From NCBI GenBank assembly GCA_021845665.1, contig JAJZVO010000050.1, positions 1 to 33,058 of the forward strand: DNA of 33,058 bases. Direction: 5' to 3'. Below the pieces are notes generated by a model. The model was not told the DNA's origin. It made no database searches and saw only the letters and a list, made by a program, of their open reading frames with translations. This document shows positions 2,280-7,063 of the stretch, piece after piece; the stretch's first letter is position 1; each line of letters starts with the position of its first letter. A program made the translations under genes and the position numbers. This stretch comes from Bacteroidota bacterium. GTDB lineage: Bacteria > Bacteroidota > Ignavibacteria > Kryptoniales > JAKASW01.

Positions 2280-3104
2280 TTAATGACGGGGAAATAGGCC
2301 GCGCCAGGCGCGGCTAACTGTATGAAGAATCGGGATACTGTCATTTGGACATTGATGTGAGAGGACAACAAGTAGTCCAGCATCACCAAAGCCTTTTGGA
2401 GTGATTTGATCAGCGCGGTGGCAATAGTGAAGGATTGTCTGTTTCTCACCTGGGGAAAAATGGGAGCATGTGGAATGGAAAACGTTGTACCCATCATCCA
2501 GGATTCTCGTACAGATTGGCATTATCTCAGTCTCATTTTCAATTCTAGTTAAGGCCTGAGCGGTAGCAGCGACAAGAAGTATGAAGACTCTAGAACCACC
2601 CGAGAGTAGCTCCTGGAATATGTCGTTCCAGTAGTCGCAGACTTGCTTGCCAGTGCCGGAAAAGTCGTCGATAAGCACAACTGTGTCATCTGGCCCGAGC
2701 TTCTTCTCCACAATCTCGCTGCGATGGATAAACAGGTCGGCGTACTTCTTCTGCGTCAACGAGGCTGCGATGCGGAATAGATGCAACATTGAGTCACCGC
2801 TTTCCCCAACGCTTCCAGAATAAGGGACAAAGAACCACCTGCCTCTTCTTTGAGATGCATTGGTACTCCAACCCTCCAAGCTATTAAGACCGTCTAGAAA
2901 CGAAGCCTTGACTGCCTGCGCTGGGATAAACAAAACCGAGTCAAGAATTCTTGCTGCGAGATCTCGATCCACTTTTCGAAATTGCCTTAGCCACATCTCC
3001 AAAATGCTATTTGTGACCGGGTCGTGATAGCCGGAGAATTGGGCCATCCAACGGTCATACCGTTGCTGGTCAATAGGTGTACCCCGATTCAAAGGTTGGC
3101 GCAT
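2280..3104 (-). CDS. Phosphoribosyltransferase-fold protein, last gene of the dam-parB operon
   Basis: This is a 274-residue soluble protein. Residues 142-153 read VVLIDDFSGTGK: a hydrophobic strand followed by two acidic residues and a GTG loop, matching the PRPP-binding signature of type I phosphoribosyltransferases (general pattern hhhhDDxxxTG). The N-terminal ~130 residues are helical with tryptophans and resemble no purine or pyrimidine salvage enzyme. The C-terminus (LLVVLSHQCPNDSIPILH) is distinctive, and similar proteins are found as 'PRTase-like' members of predicted prokaryotic conflict loci. The start ATG lies one base after the stop of parB, so translation is probably coupled. Substrate and reaction are unknown. 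Possible roles are modifying a nucleotide or base, or sensing PRPP or nucleotides. Family naming is by motif only. Confidence 0.6.
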   Translation of the reverse strand: MRQPLNRGTPIDQQRYDRWMAQFSGYHDPVTNSILEMWLRQFRKVDRDLAARILDSVLFIPAQAVKASFLDGLNSLEGWSTNASQRRGRWFFVPYSGSVGESGDSMLHLFRIAASLTQKKYADLFIHRSEIVEKKLGPDDTVVLIDDFSGTGKQVCDYWNDIFQELLSGGSRVFILLVAATAQALTRIENETEIMPICTRILDDGYNVFHSTCSHFSPGEKQTILHYCHRADQITPKGFGDAGLLVVLSHQCPNDSIPILHTVSRAWRGLFPRH

Positions 3105-3105
3105 T

Positions 3106-4068
3106 CTACCGGTGTTTGTCAGCTTCGCGAAGCTTCTTTTCGAGGATCTCTAACAGCCTCTCGATAGCCTCCCACAGCTCCTCCTCTCCGTAGTACTGCT
3201 GGACGTCGAGATTAACCATCTCGCTTTCAAGGGCATTCATTCTCTTGACGATTGCTCTTGTCTCTGCGTGTATGCTTGCTTCTTCGATTTCCAGGTAACT
3301 GAGCGGTGTCTGATGAGATTCAAAGAACTGTTTGAGACGTCGAGAAAATTCCTTGATTCGTCCGATTCTCTTTGCGTTCGCAATGTGTTGCTTTATTAAC
3401 CTAAAATCAGTAACTGCTTTGATTGTTCTTGGCTCCACCAGGTATTTCTCCAGCATGGCCTTTATAAATTTCTTCTCGGAGAACCATGGGAACTTCGTGA
3501 CCTCGCGATCGCGGATTACCGAATACATCTCTATGAAGAAATCAGCTTTGATCCTTTTTACCGGCTCAGGATCCAACATCAGGTCTTGGAATTCCTTGGG
3601 GTAATAGATCAATTTCTTGCAACGGGCTATCACCGCTATGTCCAGGCCTGTGAGTTCAGCGAGTCTTGAGTCGTTTCTGTCACCGGTCTCTTTCATCAAT
3701 AGCTCCACCTTGAGCGCTGTTGGCATCAACTCCCAATCTTCTCGAAGCTTATGTATCTGAAACATGGTCACTATGTTCTGGACCACTGTGGGTTCGGCAA
3801 CTTGATTCACTGGCACTGACTCGAGAGCGAGATCCTTAGCGCAAATCCACCGGCGCTGTCCATCAAGAATCACCAGCCGTCCTTTCGATGCCTCCCTGTA
3901 AACTGTAAGAGGCACCAGAATACCTACTCTCTTTATGGATTCCTTCAGTGTCTGCAGAGGCAGCCGATCAAAGAGCATCCTCGGATTATGTGGGTTCGGG
4001 TTGAGGTCTCCTGTTTTTACGTGCTTCACCCCGATTGAACTTTCTATAATATTCTTTCCCTTTGCCAT
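3106..4068 (-). CDS. ParB/Srx-fold domain protein
   Basis: This is a 320-residue protein. Residues 17-80 form a ParB N-terminal-like domain: NPHNPR, then a helix ending in GILVPLTVYRE, then RLVILDGQRRW at 64-74. DGQRRW takes the place of the GERR nucleotide-binding box of chromosomal ParB. A helical middle region could hold a DNA-binding segment. The C-terminal 60 residues (ending EELWEAIERLLEILEKKLREADKHR) should form a coiled coil. No parA neighbour exists, so chromosome partition is unlikely. ParB-like domains elsewhere act as CTPases, nucleases or small-molecule kinases and are often joined to adenine methyltransferases in phages and islands. Nine bases separate it from the dam-type gene and one base from the PRTase-fold gene, so the three should act together. 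Confidence 0.8.
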   Translation of the reverse strand: MAKGKNIIESSIGVKHVKTGDLNPNPHNPRMLFDRLPLQTLKESIKRVGILVPLTVYREASKGRLVILDGQRRWICAKDLALESVPVNQVAEPTVVQNIVTMFQIHKLREDWELMPTALKVELLMKETGDRNDSRLAELTGLDIAVIARCKKLIYYPKEFQDLMLDPEPVKRIKADFFIEMYSVIRDREVTKFPWFSEKKFIKAMLEKYLVEPRTIKAVTDFRLIKQHIANAKRIGRIKEFSRRLKQFFESHQTPLSYLEIEEASIHAETRAIVKRMNALESEMVNLDVQQYYGEEELWEAIERLLEILEKKLREADKHR

Positions 4069-4077
4069 GATTTTTGT

Positions 4078-4869
4078 TCAGTAATTTGTTATTAAAAGTT
4101 CTCTGCTTTTTCTCCGGTTCTCACTGAATCCGGCAATGACGCGCTGAACAGTCACCAACCTAGCATGGAAGCCTTTTGCCAGGTCATTGCCTTCACGGCT
4201 TAGTCCGTAACTCACGAGAAATGGAATCCCCTTTCTATCCAAGTGTTCTAATTGAGAGCGCAGATTCCTTAGGTCTTTTGAGCCAAAGTCAGACATGTGG
4301 TACTCGCGAAAAACACGCCGAGATGATATGCTGTATGGTGGATCCAAATATACAAAGTCACCTTCTTTGACCTGCTCAAGCGTTAATTGGAAAGAGCCTG
4401 AGATCAAATTCGCTTTCTTCAATTTCTTTGAGTAGTGAGACAGCATATCGACCGATGGCAGGGTTCCCGGCTTGGAGCCTCCATAAGGCACATTGAATTG
4501 TCCGCTTCGATTTGTCCGATAGAGTCCATTAAAAGAAAATCGATTAAGGTATATGAACCTTGCCGCGCGCTCCTGCGGATCCAGGGCTTTGGGATTCAGT
4601 TCTCTAAGTCGGTAATACTCCCTCTTCCCATGTTTGAAGCCTGCCAAGTAACGAGCCACATCGATTGAGTGTCTCTTCACTTGACGATAAGTCCCGATCA
4701 ATTCAGAATTAATATCTCCGAGTAATGCCTTAAGCGGGTCGAGAGCAAAGAACAGGCACGCTGATCCAGCAAACGGTTCGACATATCGCTCAAAATCCTT
4801 TGGCGCTATTGTCGTTAGAATAGGAAGCAACTTACGCTTACTGCCAGCCCATCTCAAGAGTGTATTCAT
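4078..4869 (-). CDS. Dam-family DNA adenine methyltransferase
   Basis: This is a 263-residue class-alpha N6-adenine methyltransferase. RWAGSKRKLLP (6-16) is the Dam-type motif X, EPFAGSACLFFAL (31-43) is the AdoMet-binding motif I, and YLDPPY (174-179) is the catalytic DPPY motif. LNRFSFNGLYRTNRSGQFNVP (108-128) is typical of the Dam/DpnM group. Length and motif order agree with an intact enzyme. The group usually methylates GATC, but the target here is not shown by the sequence. Its ATG shares four bases (ATGA) with the stop of an upstream 40-codon ORF. It is followed closely by the parB-like and PRTase-fold genes. No cognate restriction gene sits in the operon, although Mrr-like and HNH nucleases lie just upstream. 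Confidence 0.9.
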   Translation of the reverse strand: MNTLLRWAGSKRKLLPILTTIAPKDFERYVEPFAGSACLFFALDPLKALLGDINSELIGTYRQVKRHSIDVARYLAGFKHGKREYYRLRELNPKALDPQERAARFIYLNRFSFNGLYRTNRSGQFNVPYGGSKPGTLPSVDMLSHYSKKLKKANLISGSFQLTLEQVKEGDFVYLDPPYSISSRRVFREYHMSDFGSKDLRNLRSQLEHLDRKGIPFLVSYGLSREGNDLAKGFHARLVTVQRVIAGFSENRRKSRELLITNY

Positions 4870-4988
4870 TTTGTATCTTGAAAAATGTAGTTGAATCTCC
4901 GAACTATTACAAACTCGGGGTTTCTACTGGCCTCCCCCTTGTTGTTGCGGTTATTCTTGCCGAATGGTCGAGCTTCGATTGAACGCAA
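4866..4988 (-). CDS. 40-codon leader ORF coupled to the dam-type gene
   Basis: On the minus strand a TTG at 4988 is preceded, nine bases upstream, by GGGAGG. It opens a 40-codon frame starting MRSIEARPFGKNNRNN and ending VRRFNYIFQDTK. Its TGA overlaps the methyltransferase ATG as ATGA, a typical translational-coupling junction. A promoter-like pair lies just upstream at 5018-5046. The peptide is basic and asparagine-rich and matches no family known to me. It may be a leader controlling the operon, a small functional partner, or the tail of a lost gene. TTG initiation and the absence of any homologue in hand keep confidence moderate. Confidence 0.45.
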   Translation of the reverse strand: MRSIEARPFGKNNRNNKGEASRNPEFVIVRRFNYIFQDTK

Positions 4989-5017
4989 GAATTCGAACCT
5001 CCCATGTTATTGCATTG

Positions 5018-5046
5018 TCTATACCTGAAACACTGTGAGGTGTCAG
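5018..5046 (-). promoter_or_regulatory. Sigma70-like promoter of the leader ORF-dam-parB-PRTase operon
   Basis: On the minus strand, CTGACA (5046-5041), 17 bp and TATAGA (5023-5018) match -35 and -10 elements at 5/6 and 4/6 positions. Transcription would start near 5011, only a few bases before the GGGAGG site. The interval also holds an imperfect inverted repeat (CTGA.AC...GT.TTTCAG) that could bind a regulator. The rest of the 4989-5175 gap shows nothing else. Confidence 0.5.
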
Positions 5047-5175: not shown

Positions 5176-6078
5176 TCATTCTTCCTCAAAGTAGTCGTTG
5201 TCAATTCTCTTAATTTCATATGAGCTAGTAGTTGAAACACCTATACCATGGTCTATCATAAGCTGTGTCAGCTGCTCCCCATCTATCAAAACGATTTTCG
5301 TCTCGTTCTTCGGCGTGTATTCTCTCGCCTCTTTAGAAAAAGTCGACGTGGTTATGAATATCCCTTTCTTTGCGCCTTGACCGGCCAACGCCCCTACGAA
5401 TTTATGGATCTCAGGTCTCCCGACGACGGTGTCAGGTTGCCACCTCTTGGCCTGTACGTAAATTATGTCGAGCCCTAACTTGTCTTCCTTAATAGTCCCA
5501 TCGATTCCCTCATCGCCGCTCTTTCCGATCGCTTTTCCGGCGTCCTTGAAGGATCCGCCATATCCCATCTTTACTAGCAGTTCCACCACGAGTTTCTCAA
5601 AAAATGACGGCGGCAGTTCAGTCACCCTTTTCAGTAATTCCTTTGCCAGAGATTCCCTTAAGCCTTGATAAGCGGAGTAAAGGCTCTCCTCTGGGGTCTG
5701 GCTAGAATCAACGTCAACTTCCTCTGACTGATCATACTTAGCAGTCTGGAATTCAAGGAATTCAGGATACTGCCGTAGAAAGGCAACGTTGATTTGGGCC
5801 GGTTTACGCCGGAGCACCTCTTGCCCGCGTTCAGTAATGACAACTGAACCCCTTCGCGGCGAATCAAGCAGGCCGGCTTTCTTCAAATAGGTGCGTGCCC
5901 ATCCGACTCTGTTACCAAAGATGAATTGCTGTCCGCTCGGCAACAGCTCCTTGCGCTCCTCCGCTGTTAGCTTGAACTCCGCTGCAAGAGTCTCAGTCAA
6001 ATCCGTCATCCGATGCTCTTTGCCGTCAGAGGCAGCCTTTAGCAAAGGTAGCATTACTGATTGATAATCCGGTATCAT
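5176..6078 (-). CDS. mrr: Mrr-type restriction endonuclease
   Basis: The 300-residue length is close to E. coli Mrr. The N-terminal ~95 residues form a winged-helix-like domain (LPSGQQFIFGNRVGWARTYL, then KKAGLLDSPRRGSVVITERG) typical of Mrr_N. The C-terminal PD-(D/E)xK-like nuclease domain spans about 150-285, with GDEGID (188-193) and IIYVQAKRW (205-213) carrying the catalytic Asp and QxK residues. Mrr enzymes cut DNA carrying foreign methylation (type IV restriction) and act as intracellular DNA nucleases. The gene is intact, with AAAGGAG upstream of its ATG. It is followed about 190 bp later by the dam-type operon promoter, so it must tolerate that enzyme's mark if both are active. Confidence 0.92.
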   Translation of the reverse strand: MIPDYQSVMLPLLKAASDGKEHRMTDLTETLAAEFKLTAEERKELLPSGQQFIFGNRVGWARTYLKKAGLLDSPRRGSVVITERGQEVLRRKPAQINVAFLRQYPEFLEFQTAKYDQSEEVDVDSSQTPEESLYSAYQGLRESLAKELLKRVTELPPSFFEKLVVELLVKMGYGGSFKDAGKAIGKSGDEGIDGTIKEDKLGLDIIYVQAKRWQPDTVVGRPEIHKFVGALAGQGAKKGIFITTSTFSKEAREYTPKNETKIVLIDGEQLTQLMIDHGIGVSTTSSYEIKRIDNDYFEEE

Positions 6079-6160
6079 GTCCCTCGACTCCTTTACTTCT
6101 TATCTTCAGAAACTCTGCAACCAAGTAAATAGGTTTGCAAGTCCGTTTCGTCAACAAACA

Positions 6161-7063
6161 TTATCGCGCCCTTCTAAACTCCTCATGCCTCATCTCTAAT
6201 CTCTCCCTATCCGGCCAGTCGGACTTGTGACGCGGGAGAATGATCTTATGGTCGTGGAGCTCCTGGAGGCCGTGCCTCAGCATCGGCCCGTCGTGCTCCT
6301 CGAGCACGTCGCCACGCACATGTATGATATAGTCGGGATTTATGCCGAGAATGTTGGTGTCAAACGCGGCGTGGTGAATCTTGCAGAGTGAGAGGCCGTT
6401 TGGCACAACCGGCTCGCCGTGAGGCTTGCCGTCTGGAATTATATGCGCCGCGTCGAGAAGCTCGCTGTGCTTGATGTGGCAGACGGTGCAGTTGTCGCCG
6501 TAGGCGTCGAGCACCATCATGCGGAACGCCTGCTGGTGAAGCCTGGCCCTTGTCTGCGTCGCGACGTATCTTCTCAGGTCTGTCTCGCCGACCGCAGCTG
6601 CGGTCTCCTCGACCGCGTCCGGGAAGTAAGCCGCCTTGATCTCCGCAACGACACTGAGCGACTCCGGGTGATCTTCAATGATGTATATCGGGCAGACAGC
6701 CTGGTAGCGGCCTGGCCGCACGCTGTGAAAATACACCAGCGGTGTCTTTGTCAGCATTGCCTGCCTGAGTCCGGCGTTGTCACGGTGATGAGGATCGCTT
6801 CCGCGATAGCGATAATTGATGAGTCCATCCTTCCCGATGGAATCGTCGTATGGGCCATCGCTGACGGTGGTAATGGATATCGGCATTGTTTCGAATTGCC
6901 TCGGCTTCCAAATACCTGTGGGACCCACAAGTGCAATCGTCTCCCCGCCGACCGAGAAGCCGGTCTCGAGCTCCTTCCTCGTAAATATCCCGGCGTTCCG
7001 TGAGCTCTCCTTCTCCAGCCACGCGAACAGCGCGGCCCTAACCTGTGATTCATCAAAGCCCAA
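6161..7063 (-). CDS. HNH endonuclease with an N-terminal putative reader domain
   Basis: In this 300-residue protein the C-terminal HNH domain (about 180-250) shows CTVC (192-195), DAAHIIP with the catalytic His207, VPNGLSLCKIHH (220-231) and the CxxC/CxxH zinc pattern. The N-terminal 150 residues (IFTRKELETGF..., LINYRYRG, TPLVYFHSVRPGRYQAVCPIYI) look beta-rich. They resemble the PUA/SRA-like front halves of modification-dependent McrA-type nucleases, but this is an impression. The start is a TTG with GAGGG a few bases upstream; an in-frame stop lies just before it and no in-frame ATG fits. It is co-directional with mrr, 82 bp apart, suggesting a shared type IV-like defence role. Confidence 0.75.
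   Translation of the reverse strand: MGFDESQVRAALFAWLEKESSRNAGIFTRKELETGFSVGGETIALVGPTGIWKPRQFETMPISITTVSDGPYDDSIGKDGLINYRYRGSDPHHRDNAGLRQAMLTKTPLVYFHSVRPGRYQAVCPIYIIEDHPESLSVVAEIKAAYFPDAVEETAAAVGETDLRRYVATQTRARLHQQAFRMMVLDAYGDNCTVCHIKHSELLDAAHIIPDGKPHGEPVVPNGLSLCKIHHAAFDTNILGINPDYIIHVRGDVLEEHDGPMLRHGLQELHDHKIILPRHKSDWPDRERLEMRHEEFRRAR

Follow-up and report, generated by a model that had tools for sequence, protein, structure and literature searches.

Introduction

Type III-A retrons combine a phosphoribosyltransferase (PRTase), a winged-helix protein and a reverse transcriptase, with PRTase-CE occupying the effector slot (PMC12548924). ParB-like proteins have also been found in unusual settings: Kaljevic et al. 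2025 (PMC12704722) describe orphan ParB-CTPase-fold proteins outside parAB, linked to mobile elements and diverse in NTP preference, and a table line in Anantharaman et al. 2013 (PMC3710099) lists an operon of HEPN (MAE_28990), ParB and DNA methylase genes as a conflict system. The locus analysed here, in a 33,058-nucleotide stretch of Bacteroidota DNA (the window; contig JAJZVO010000050.1), brings together an adenine methylase, a ParB-family protein and a PRTase-CE protein.

Each of these precedents overlaps with the locus in part. The window PRTase belongs to the same effector family as that of the retrons (PADLOC PRTase_III-A, PDLC02934, 1e-30), but it is accompanied by ParB and a methylase, and no reverse transcriptase was recognised in the genes tested near the cassette. 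The MAE_28990 operon is similar in pairing a DNA methylase with a ParB-fold protein, next to an RNase-type effector, yet it includes no PRTase and is a single table line that defines no system. There is no HEPN gene in the window cassette, and neither our ParB nor our methylase types lay beside any of six MAE_28990 matches in this phylum, so that the ParB of that operon is at most a possible member of the present family. The emphasis of Kaljevic et al. 2025 is on fusions, whereas the partners here are separate genes, and neither "phosphoribosyl" nor "HEPN" was found in the main text of that paper.

A second group of cassettes, found for example on the Klebsiella plasmid OW968094.1, at locus L063 and, as a variant, in Acinetobacter phage MD-2021a, likewise joins PRTase-CE to an adenine-methylase-type gene on mobile elements. 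Their sensor, however, is an ORC/CDC6-like ATPase (PF24389) with a CARF protein (CARF6) rather than ParB, their methylase is of another family, and their PRTase is just ~22% identical to that of the window. The ORC-CDC6-like and CARF6 genes are absent from the window cassette; both occur in L061 and L062. Type II restriction-modification offers a looser parallel, in that a methylase accompanies an activity that is toxic or restricting; to this the cassette adds a nearly invariant ParB and in which the third protein is usually no nuclease. DndB of the Dnd systems is a ParB-fold protein associated with DNA modification, but dndACDE genes were not recognised at the window, and modification here would be carried out by an adenine methylase. 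No description of the methylase-ParB-PRTase trio, and no named system containing it, was found in the literature, as the original prediction had supposed.

Results

Cassette layout and neighbours

The cassette at 2280-4869 consists of three genes (Table 1), with gaps of 9 bp between the methylase gene and parB and 1 bp between parB and the PRTase-CE gene. The original prediction, a four-cistron operon under a single promoter, holds for this three-gene unit and is not supported as to the leader ORF and the promoter. Promoter-like sites were no more frequent than in shuffled sequence, and none precedes dam on the minus strand. The proposed leader, whose frame shares 4 bp with the start of the Dam gene, cannot extend to 5046 because a stop at 5009-5007 leaves the frame open only from 5006; the sole start is the TTG at 4988, with GGGAGG immediately upstream. 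A tblastn search (E<=1) of the other fetched loci gave no match beyond the ORF itself, which thus probably lies outside the system.

Table 1. Genes and candidate ORFs of the cassette and its upstream flank
Feature	Coordinates	Strand	Size	Basis
PRTase-CE gene	2280..3104	minus	274 aa	PF24390, PADLOC PRTase_III-A, AF2 model
ParB-family gene	3106..4068	minus	320 aa	PF02195, TIGR00180, 27-sequence alignment
D12/Dam adenine methylase gene	4078..4869	minus	263 aa	TIGR00571, PF02086, motifs
Claimed leader ORF	4866..4988	minus	40 aa (TTG start)	no Pfam match, not conserved
Mrr-type (type IV) restriction enzyme	5176..6078	minus		PF04471 7e-35, PF14338 3e-34, PADLOC mREase_IV 1e-94
HNH endonuclease	6161..7063	minus		PF13391 9e-9, PADLOC HNH 1.4e-20

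Further upstream, the Mrr gene is a separate defence gene beside the cassette, and the HNH endonuclease distantly resembles phosphorothioate-dependent SBD-HNH enzymes (NF045808, 65 bits, under its cut-off of 180). Both were considered as cassette members and rejected, neither being a conserved neighbour of the relatives; with a PRTase as the third gene, the cassette has no cognate restriction endonuclease.

The three proteins

The methylase is a predicted D12-class (Dam-type) DNA adenine-N6 methyltransferase, as originally proposed: it matches TIGR00571 (dam) at 4.1e-66 (223 bits vs a cut-off of 115) and PF02086 at 1.5e-48, with intact WAGSK (residue 7), FAG (33) and DPPY (176) motifs.

The ParB-family assignment is borne out by PF02195 (ParB_N, 3.9e-12) and, barely above its cut-off, by TIGR00180 (58.50 vs 58.45 bits, residues 14-167), with an N-terminal ParB nucleotide-binding domain followed by an HTH region. 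In a 27-sequence alignment, N28 P29 R30 of box I and D69 G70 and R72 R73 of box II are invariant, so that the box I NPR and the box II GxRR arginines of the ParB-CTPase fold are present. DGQRRW, singled out earlier as a replacement of GERR, is there but is ordinary for the family (DGQRR in 10/27 members, DGERR in 17/27). The departure lies in box III, where canonical ParBs have ENxQR in 27/27 and the family has it in 0/27, with M[FY]xIH in all 27. The ParA-binding motif LG[RK]GL is likewise found in 0/27 members vs 18/27 canonical ParBs of the same phylum, and no ParA-type gene was recognised beside the cassette or in the neighbourhoods of relatives. This agrees with the absence of parA noted earlier, and a ParB of ParABS segregation was rejected on these grounds. 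The cassette ParB is an extra one, since six genomes and G000 each have a further ParB that matches much more weakly.

PF24390 matches the third protein at 2.6e-40 (139.3 bits vs a cut-off of 27) over positions 2-253 of 253. The AF2 model (pLDDT 95.8, pTM 0.90) and PDB comparison agree on the predicted PRTase fold with its DDFSGTG loop: all 50 of the 50 PDB matches listed have the phosphoribosyltransferase fold (UPRT/OPRT/HPRT), the best being a uracil PRTase (Z 10.7, rmsd 3.8 over 158 residues). The PRPP-loop-like DDFSGTGKQ spans residues 146-154 (DDFSGTG 146-152); across 33 sequences D147 and G152 are invariant and D146 and G150 are conserved in at least 90%. The protein is likely the effector of the cassette, and no account of PRTase-CE chemistry was found in the literature. 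PRTase-CE evidently has other contexts, because PF24390 exceeded its cut-off in 16 of 296 genomes of the phylum and, in short flanking loci from these 16, our ParB or Dam lay beside it only in the window's own genome.

Recurrence, exchange and mobility

A blind search with ParB alone recovered 46 genome loci spanning ~15 phyla, most of them on longer bacterial contigs. Co-occurrence of the trio, set beforehand as a refuting test, proved widespread: methylase, ParB and effector recur in the same order and with tight spacing in most of these loci, and an effector-like gene directly follows parB wherever the contig is long enough. The distribution is patchy, with the cassette in 3/299 genomes of one family and 2/297 of another, and defence genes accompany relatives (Dsr1, HEC-01A/B, TmtA) as they do the window locus (Mrr, HNH).

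The slot downstream of parB usually holds PRTase-CE; elsewhere it is filled by a nuclease-fold protein with HEPN, by an Mrr-like nuclease or by another protein with RxxxxH. In the HEPN replacement the nuclease fold is of PD-(D/E)XK type and the RxxxxH motif is invariant; among the HEPN-like effectors of L116-L125, seven scanned gave no PF18737 match (E<=1). At L121 and L153 a D12 methylase and ParB are joined to an Mrr_cat-like nuclease. Effector state changes three times on the ParB tree, and ParB and PRTase co-diverge (Spearman 0.85 for pairwise divergences). The methylase adjoins ParB in 41/46 loci (33 Dam-like, 8 of another D12 type), and changes state nine times on the same tree; for ParB and Dam the Spearman coefficient of pairwise divergences is 0.14. 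ParB and the effector make up the core, with the methylase as the exchangeable component. No methylase lies near L101, L102, L104 or L105, and L103 has just a weak candidate at a distance of 2.6 kb; flavobacteria carry ParB and PRTase without a methylase in integron-like cassette arrays. Methylation is therefore not strictly required within the cassette.

The flavobacterial ParB-PRTase pair moves as an integron-like cassette; an Rfam search of the array loci gave no match. Four trios with the same order and tight spacing lie on viral contigs (IMG/VR), with an integrase and endolysin near L077 and a portal protein near L080. Prophage-associated copies exist, and an established role for such a cassette was not found. 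Viral scans with the single proteins P0001 or P0002 and with the two-sequence ParB alignment A3 gave no match, the PRTase alignment A1 contained no sufficiently conserved block, and tblastn of P0002 against plasmids and phages gave only partial (<80% coverage), low-identity ParB matches.

Discussion

Same-order recurrence across phyla and prophages, together with effector replacement, suggests that the cassette is probably a mobile phage-defence system not described before. The defence reading of the original prediction, reduced from four genes to three, is favoured by effector exchange, sporadic distribution, defence neighbours and the place of PRTase-CE in retron III-A. We put at about one in two the probability that it is a mobile module against phages (or other mobile elements), with exchangeable effectors, ParB as sensor and the methylase marking self. 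In such a module the D12 methylase would N6-methylate host copies of a DNA site, and ParB, as an NTP-gated clamp, would load on unmarked or otherwise foreign DNA. Tight linkage and co-divergence suggest that loaded ParB would turn on the co-inherited third protein; PRTase-CE may then act on PRPP or nucleotides, halting growth or phage replication. In sister systems an RNase-like protein of HEPN type, or else an Mrr-like nuclease, takes the effector slot. A more specific version remains tentative and somewhat doubtful: that in an undescribed immunity class self and foreign DNA are told apart by a ParB-type NTP-gated clamp, and not by a nuclease, an ATPase or a sensor of cyclic nucleotides. The clamp would read the adenine methylation that an exchangeable methylase lays down and would license PRTase-CE, HEPN, REase or DUF4062-like effectors. 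The loci and flavobacterial cassettes that lack a methylase count against the module reading as a whole. Repeated methylase exchange is likewise awkward for a ParB that reads one methylated site, unless the methylases share a target, and the box III departure in 27/27 members also speaks against this reading.

Prophage carriage fits anti-restriction or element maintenance as well. In an addiction or toxin-antitoxin-like module, ParB, with or without operator methylation, would repress or hold a toxic third protein that is freed when the element is lost; prophage contigs and integron-like arrays are typical places for such modules, the third gene is toxin-like (HEPN, nuclease) and exchangeable, and the ParB and effector genes overlap tightly. 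We consider this unlikely, as methylase and ParB have not descended together and some loci have no methylase, a short antitoxin is absent, and a large, nucleotide-binding ParB of DNA-clamp type differs from known antitoxins. Phages commonly carry Dam and ParB genes, and the four viral copies, one near an integrase and endolysin and another near a portal protein, would suit simple housekeeping, in which the methylase shields element DNA from host restriction, ParB partitions or regulates, and the PRTase tunes nucleotide pools for replication. This is improbable given the missing ParA-binding motif, the predominance of longer bacterial contigs and the fact that genes for replication or partition are largely not conserved neighbours in the family; it also leaves unexplained the defence-gene neighbours and the replacement of PRTase by HEPN or REase proteins. 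The Mrr_cat-like variants at L121 and L153 speak for ordinary type II restriction-modification, with ParB a mere regulator and the third protein attacking unmodified DNA or the cell directly. That reading is also quite unlikely, since the third protein is mostly a PRTase or HEPN domain with no recognised DNA nuclease, and no member is as constant as ParB, whose divergence runs parallel to that of the effector.

If the sensor-effector reading is true, ParB-fold proteins also serve as modular sensors in immunity, and the PRTase-CE family of defence effectors is found in a tractable system of two or three genes. The cassette is carried by isolates (Sphingomonas sp. JC676, Mesorhizobium sp. ES1-1, Paracidobacterium acidisoli, Oceaniglobus trochenteri, Polaribacter and Tamlana; in its HEPN form, Leucobacter celer, Luteimonas and Conexibacter), so that its function, methylation dependence and PRTase substrate are directly testable. 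Among metagenomic loci, L084 and L085 are one and the same sequence of 9,961 bp, binned under two phyla, and MAG taxonomy is therefore not always reliable. At L151, ParB is interrupted by IS-like insertions.

Anatomy and recurrence of the cassette

The three minus-strand ORFs of the original prediction are present, separated by gaps of 9 bp (methylase/ParB) and 1 bp (ParB/PRTase), and Pfam, NCBIfam and PADLOC agree in assigning them to Dam-type methylase, ParB and PRTase families. The leader ORF and single promoter proposed ahead of them are unsupported: an in-frame stop lies at 5009-5007, the sole start is a TTG at 4988, tblastn against the other fetched loci found no relatives of the ORF, and a promoter scan gave nothing above shuffles. 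A leader is still conceivable, because a Shine-Dalgarno-like GGGAGG precedes it. The Mrr and HNH genes directly upstream are defence genes, yet they are not conserved as neighbours of the trio and were rejected as parts of a conserved unit.

Features of the window and of fetched loci (L-numbers; other genomes, plasmids or viral contigs)
Feature	Coordinates	Strand	Match or content
D12/Dam-type methylase	window 4869-4078	minus	TIGR00571 dam 4e-66 (NCBIfam)
ParB-family protein	window 4068-3106	minus	ParB_N 3.9e-12 (Pfam)
PRTase-like protein	window 3104-2280	minus	PRTase-CE PF24390 2.6e-40; PADLOC PRTase_III-A 1e-30
Mrr-type type IV restriction gene	within window 5176-7063	minus, as trio	
HNH gene	within window 5176-7063	minus	distantly like phosphorothioate-dependent restriction enzymes
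Two degenerate direct copies, ~1.1 kb apart	window 427-1930		gene-poor; blocks of 207, 85, 39 bp, 75-90% identical
Second recurrent PRTase-CE cassette	L061:3629-8731, L062:4255-9713, L063:6858-11998		N6 methylase, PRTase-CE, ORC-CDC6-like ATPase, CARF6 protein
PRTase-CE fusion, 1060 aa	L064:5500-8682		PRTase-CE C-terminal (residues 776-1059); no family named for upstream part
ParB, then P0006	L076:6937-8801		divergent ParB of cassette family
Integron-like arrays, two flavobacteria	L105:5823-11963, L103:2144-6788		single-gene cassettes, attC-like repeats
New locus	L152		YMGTK methylase, ParB, L126-like protein
New locus	L153		Dam, ParB, Mrr_cat nuclease
New locus	L151		ParB broken by IS-like insertions

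The trio recurs in the same order in other genomes, as the original prediction had asked. Viral contigs scanned with the PRTase alignment A2 yielded four loci, all in Dam-ParB-PRTase order, one near an integrase and endolysin (L077) and one near a portal protein (L080). A genome scan conditioned on ParB alone, with a ParB alignment itself derived from trio loci, gave 46 loci: a D12 methylase is adjacent in 41 (33 Dam-like, 8 belonging to another type that begins YMGTK/YMGNK and matches PF02086 at 7e-14), and PRTase-CE directly follows ParB in 32, typically overlapping by 4 bp, the contig ending too early to judge this gene in four. The methylase lies 3' and convergent in L088, L097 and L099, and 3' on the same strand in L096, L098 and L100; five of the 46 (L101-L105) have no close methylase, L103 carrying a weak Dam-like gene 2.6 kb off.

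ParB and effector as the mobile core

The minimal mobile unit is ParB plus effector (the gene directly 3' of parB), often accompanied by a methylase that can be replaced, because on the ParB tree methylase state changes nine times and effector state three, pairwise divergences of ParB correlate with those of PRTase at 0.85 and with those of Dam at 0.14 (0.64 and 0.35 inside the window's clade), and a 2,031-bp block, 98.4% identical between Polaribacter (L103) and Tamlana (L105), spans ParB and PRTase only. Repeats ~125-145 bp long, whose ends resemble RYYYAAC...GTTRRRY, flank the block. Significant folding as single-stranded DNA was seen for several of the copies (z ~ -2.5 to -3.2) but not for others. 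Judged by these repeat features, the arrays look like integron attC arrays, with ParB+PRTase as one cassette nearly identical between the two genera; in L104 a repeat resembling these lies between a HEC-01A/B pair and ParB+PRTase.

Ten loci (L116-L122, L124-L126) carry a non-PRTase gene directly after ParB, and in eight it belongs to one family with an invariant RxxxxH. In the model of this family the N-terminal part matches PD-(D/E)XK folds (Z 11.1) and the C-terminal part HEPN folds (AF0298 Z 10.2, MntA-HepT ~9, Csm6 ~8.6); these values are middling, and on fold and motif the modelled family is assigned to HEPN. The L121 effector is a Mrr_cat-like nuclease and that of L126 a further protein, whose L152 relative contains an R-x4-H motif, read by eye. 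Following up in two families with the ParBs of L100 (Sphingomonas sp. JC676) and L122 as queries gave three new loci, both intact ones (L152, L153) having the predicted gene order. P0006, from L076, a distant relative in the window's phylum, has a weak DUF4062 match and may represent yet another kind of effector.

Phyla are intermingled on the ParB tree (21 changes for all groups, 14 being the least possible), and carriers include isolates as well as MAGs, with a prevalence of ~1% in two families. Some MAG labels are wrong, since L084 and L085 (9,961 bp, 100% identical) sit in bins labelled Chloroflexi and Actinomycetes; this duplicate is a binning artefact. Defence-gene neighbours include Dsr1 (L094), HEC-01A/B (L104), TmtA (L126), and Mrr and HNH in the window; "defence island" is a purely descriptive term here.

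Folds of ParB and PRTase

The cassette ParB is not the segregation ParB: additional, much weaker ParB matches occur in each of six cassette-carrying genomes and in genome G000; the ParA-binding motif is found in 0/27 cassette versus 18/27 canonical ParBs; and M[FY]xIH stands in all 27 where every canonical ParB (27/27) has ENxQR. The cassette ParB is predicted to bind a nucleotide, of a specificity not assignable from sequence, since its box I NPR and box II arginines are invariant and a 2025 survey of the ParB-CTPase fold reports loss of nucleotide binding on box II R->A and a nucleotide choice that is not predictable from sequence (PMC12704722).

The PRTase structure predicted from 33 cassette PRTases (pLDDT 95.8, pTM 0.90) retrieved phosphoribosyltransferase-fold entries in all rows listed by Foldseek and VIA-align (UPRT, OPRT, HPRT, APRT, PyrR; best Z 10.7, rmsd 3.8 over 158 residues). 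Because of these matches and a conserved PRPP-loop-like DDFxGTGxQ (D147 and G152 unchanged in all 33, D146 and G150 kept in at least 90%), the PRTase-fold assignment on which the original prediction was staked holds.

Proposed mechanism and relation to known systems

Alongside the observed anatomy, folds, recurrence, ParB/effector co-inheritance, effector and methylase exchange, and mobility, a mechanism may be proposed in which methylation would mark self, ParB, acting as a nucleotide-dependent clamp, would sense DNA that lacks the mark or is foreign and would activate the effector, and the PRTase would act on PRPP or nucleotides. The methylation link is the weakest step, since methylases are freely exchanged and are missing from some cassettes. 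A single target common to all the methylases, or sufficient methylation by the host, could account for this.

Retron III-A has PRTase-CE as its effector family (PMC12548924), and the cassette shares this family, as the PADLOC match indicates. The nearest published remark on such an operon is a 2013 table entry placing the HEPN protein MAE_28990 "in operon with a ParB nuclease and DNA methylase genes" (PMC3710099), although no link between that operon and the cassette ParB family was established. A literature search, with subscription papers mostly outside its reach, found no published description of the trio. Given this outcome, these two parallels and that of a CARF6 cassette, we place the trio with modification-associated and effector-based defence; something categorically new is the minority case.

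The CARF6 cassette (MTase+ORC-CDC6-like+CARF6), the second recurrent setting of PRTase-CE, is carried by plasmids and also occurs in an Acinetobacter phage record. Like the window's cassette it combines a methylase with PRTase-CE, so that methylase, DNA-associated sensor and PRTase may form a more general pattern. Its L062 variant has a dUTPase_2 gene in front and the methylase last, and the outer genes of L063 are assigned from size and order only. This cassette lies on Klebsiella conjugative plasmids, and its PRTase is matched by 127 records.
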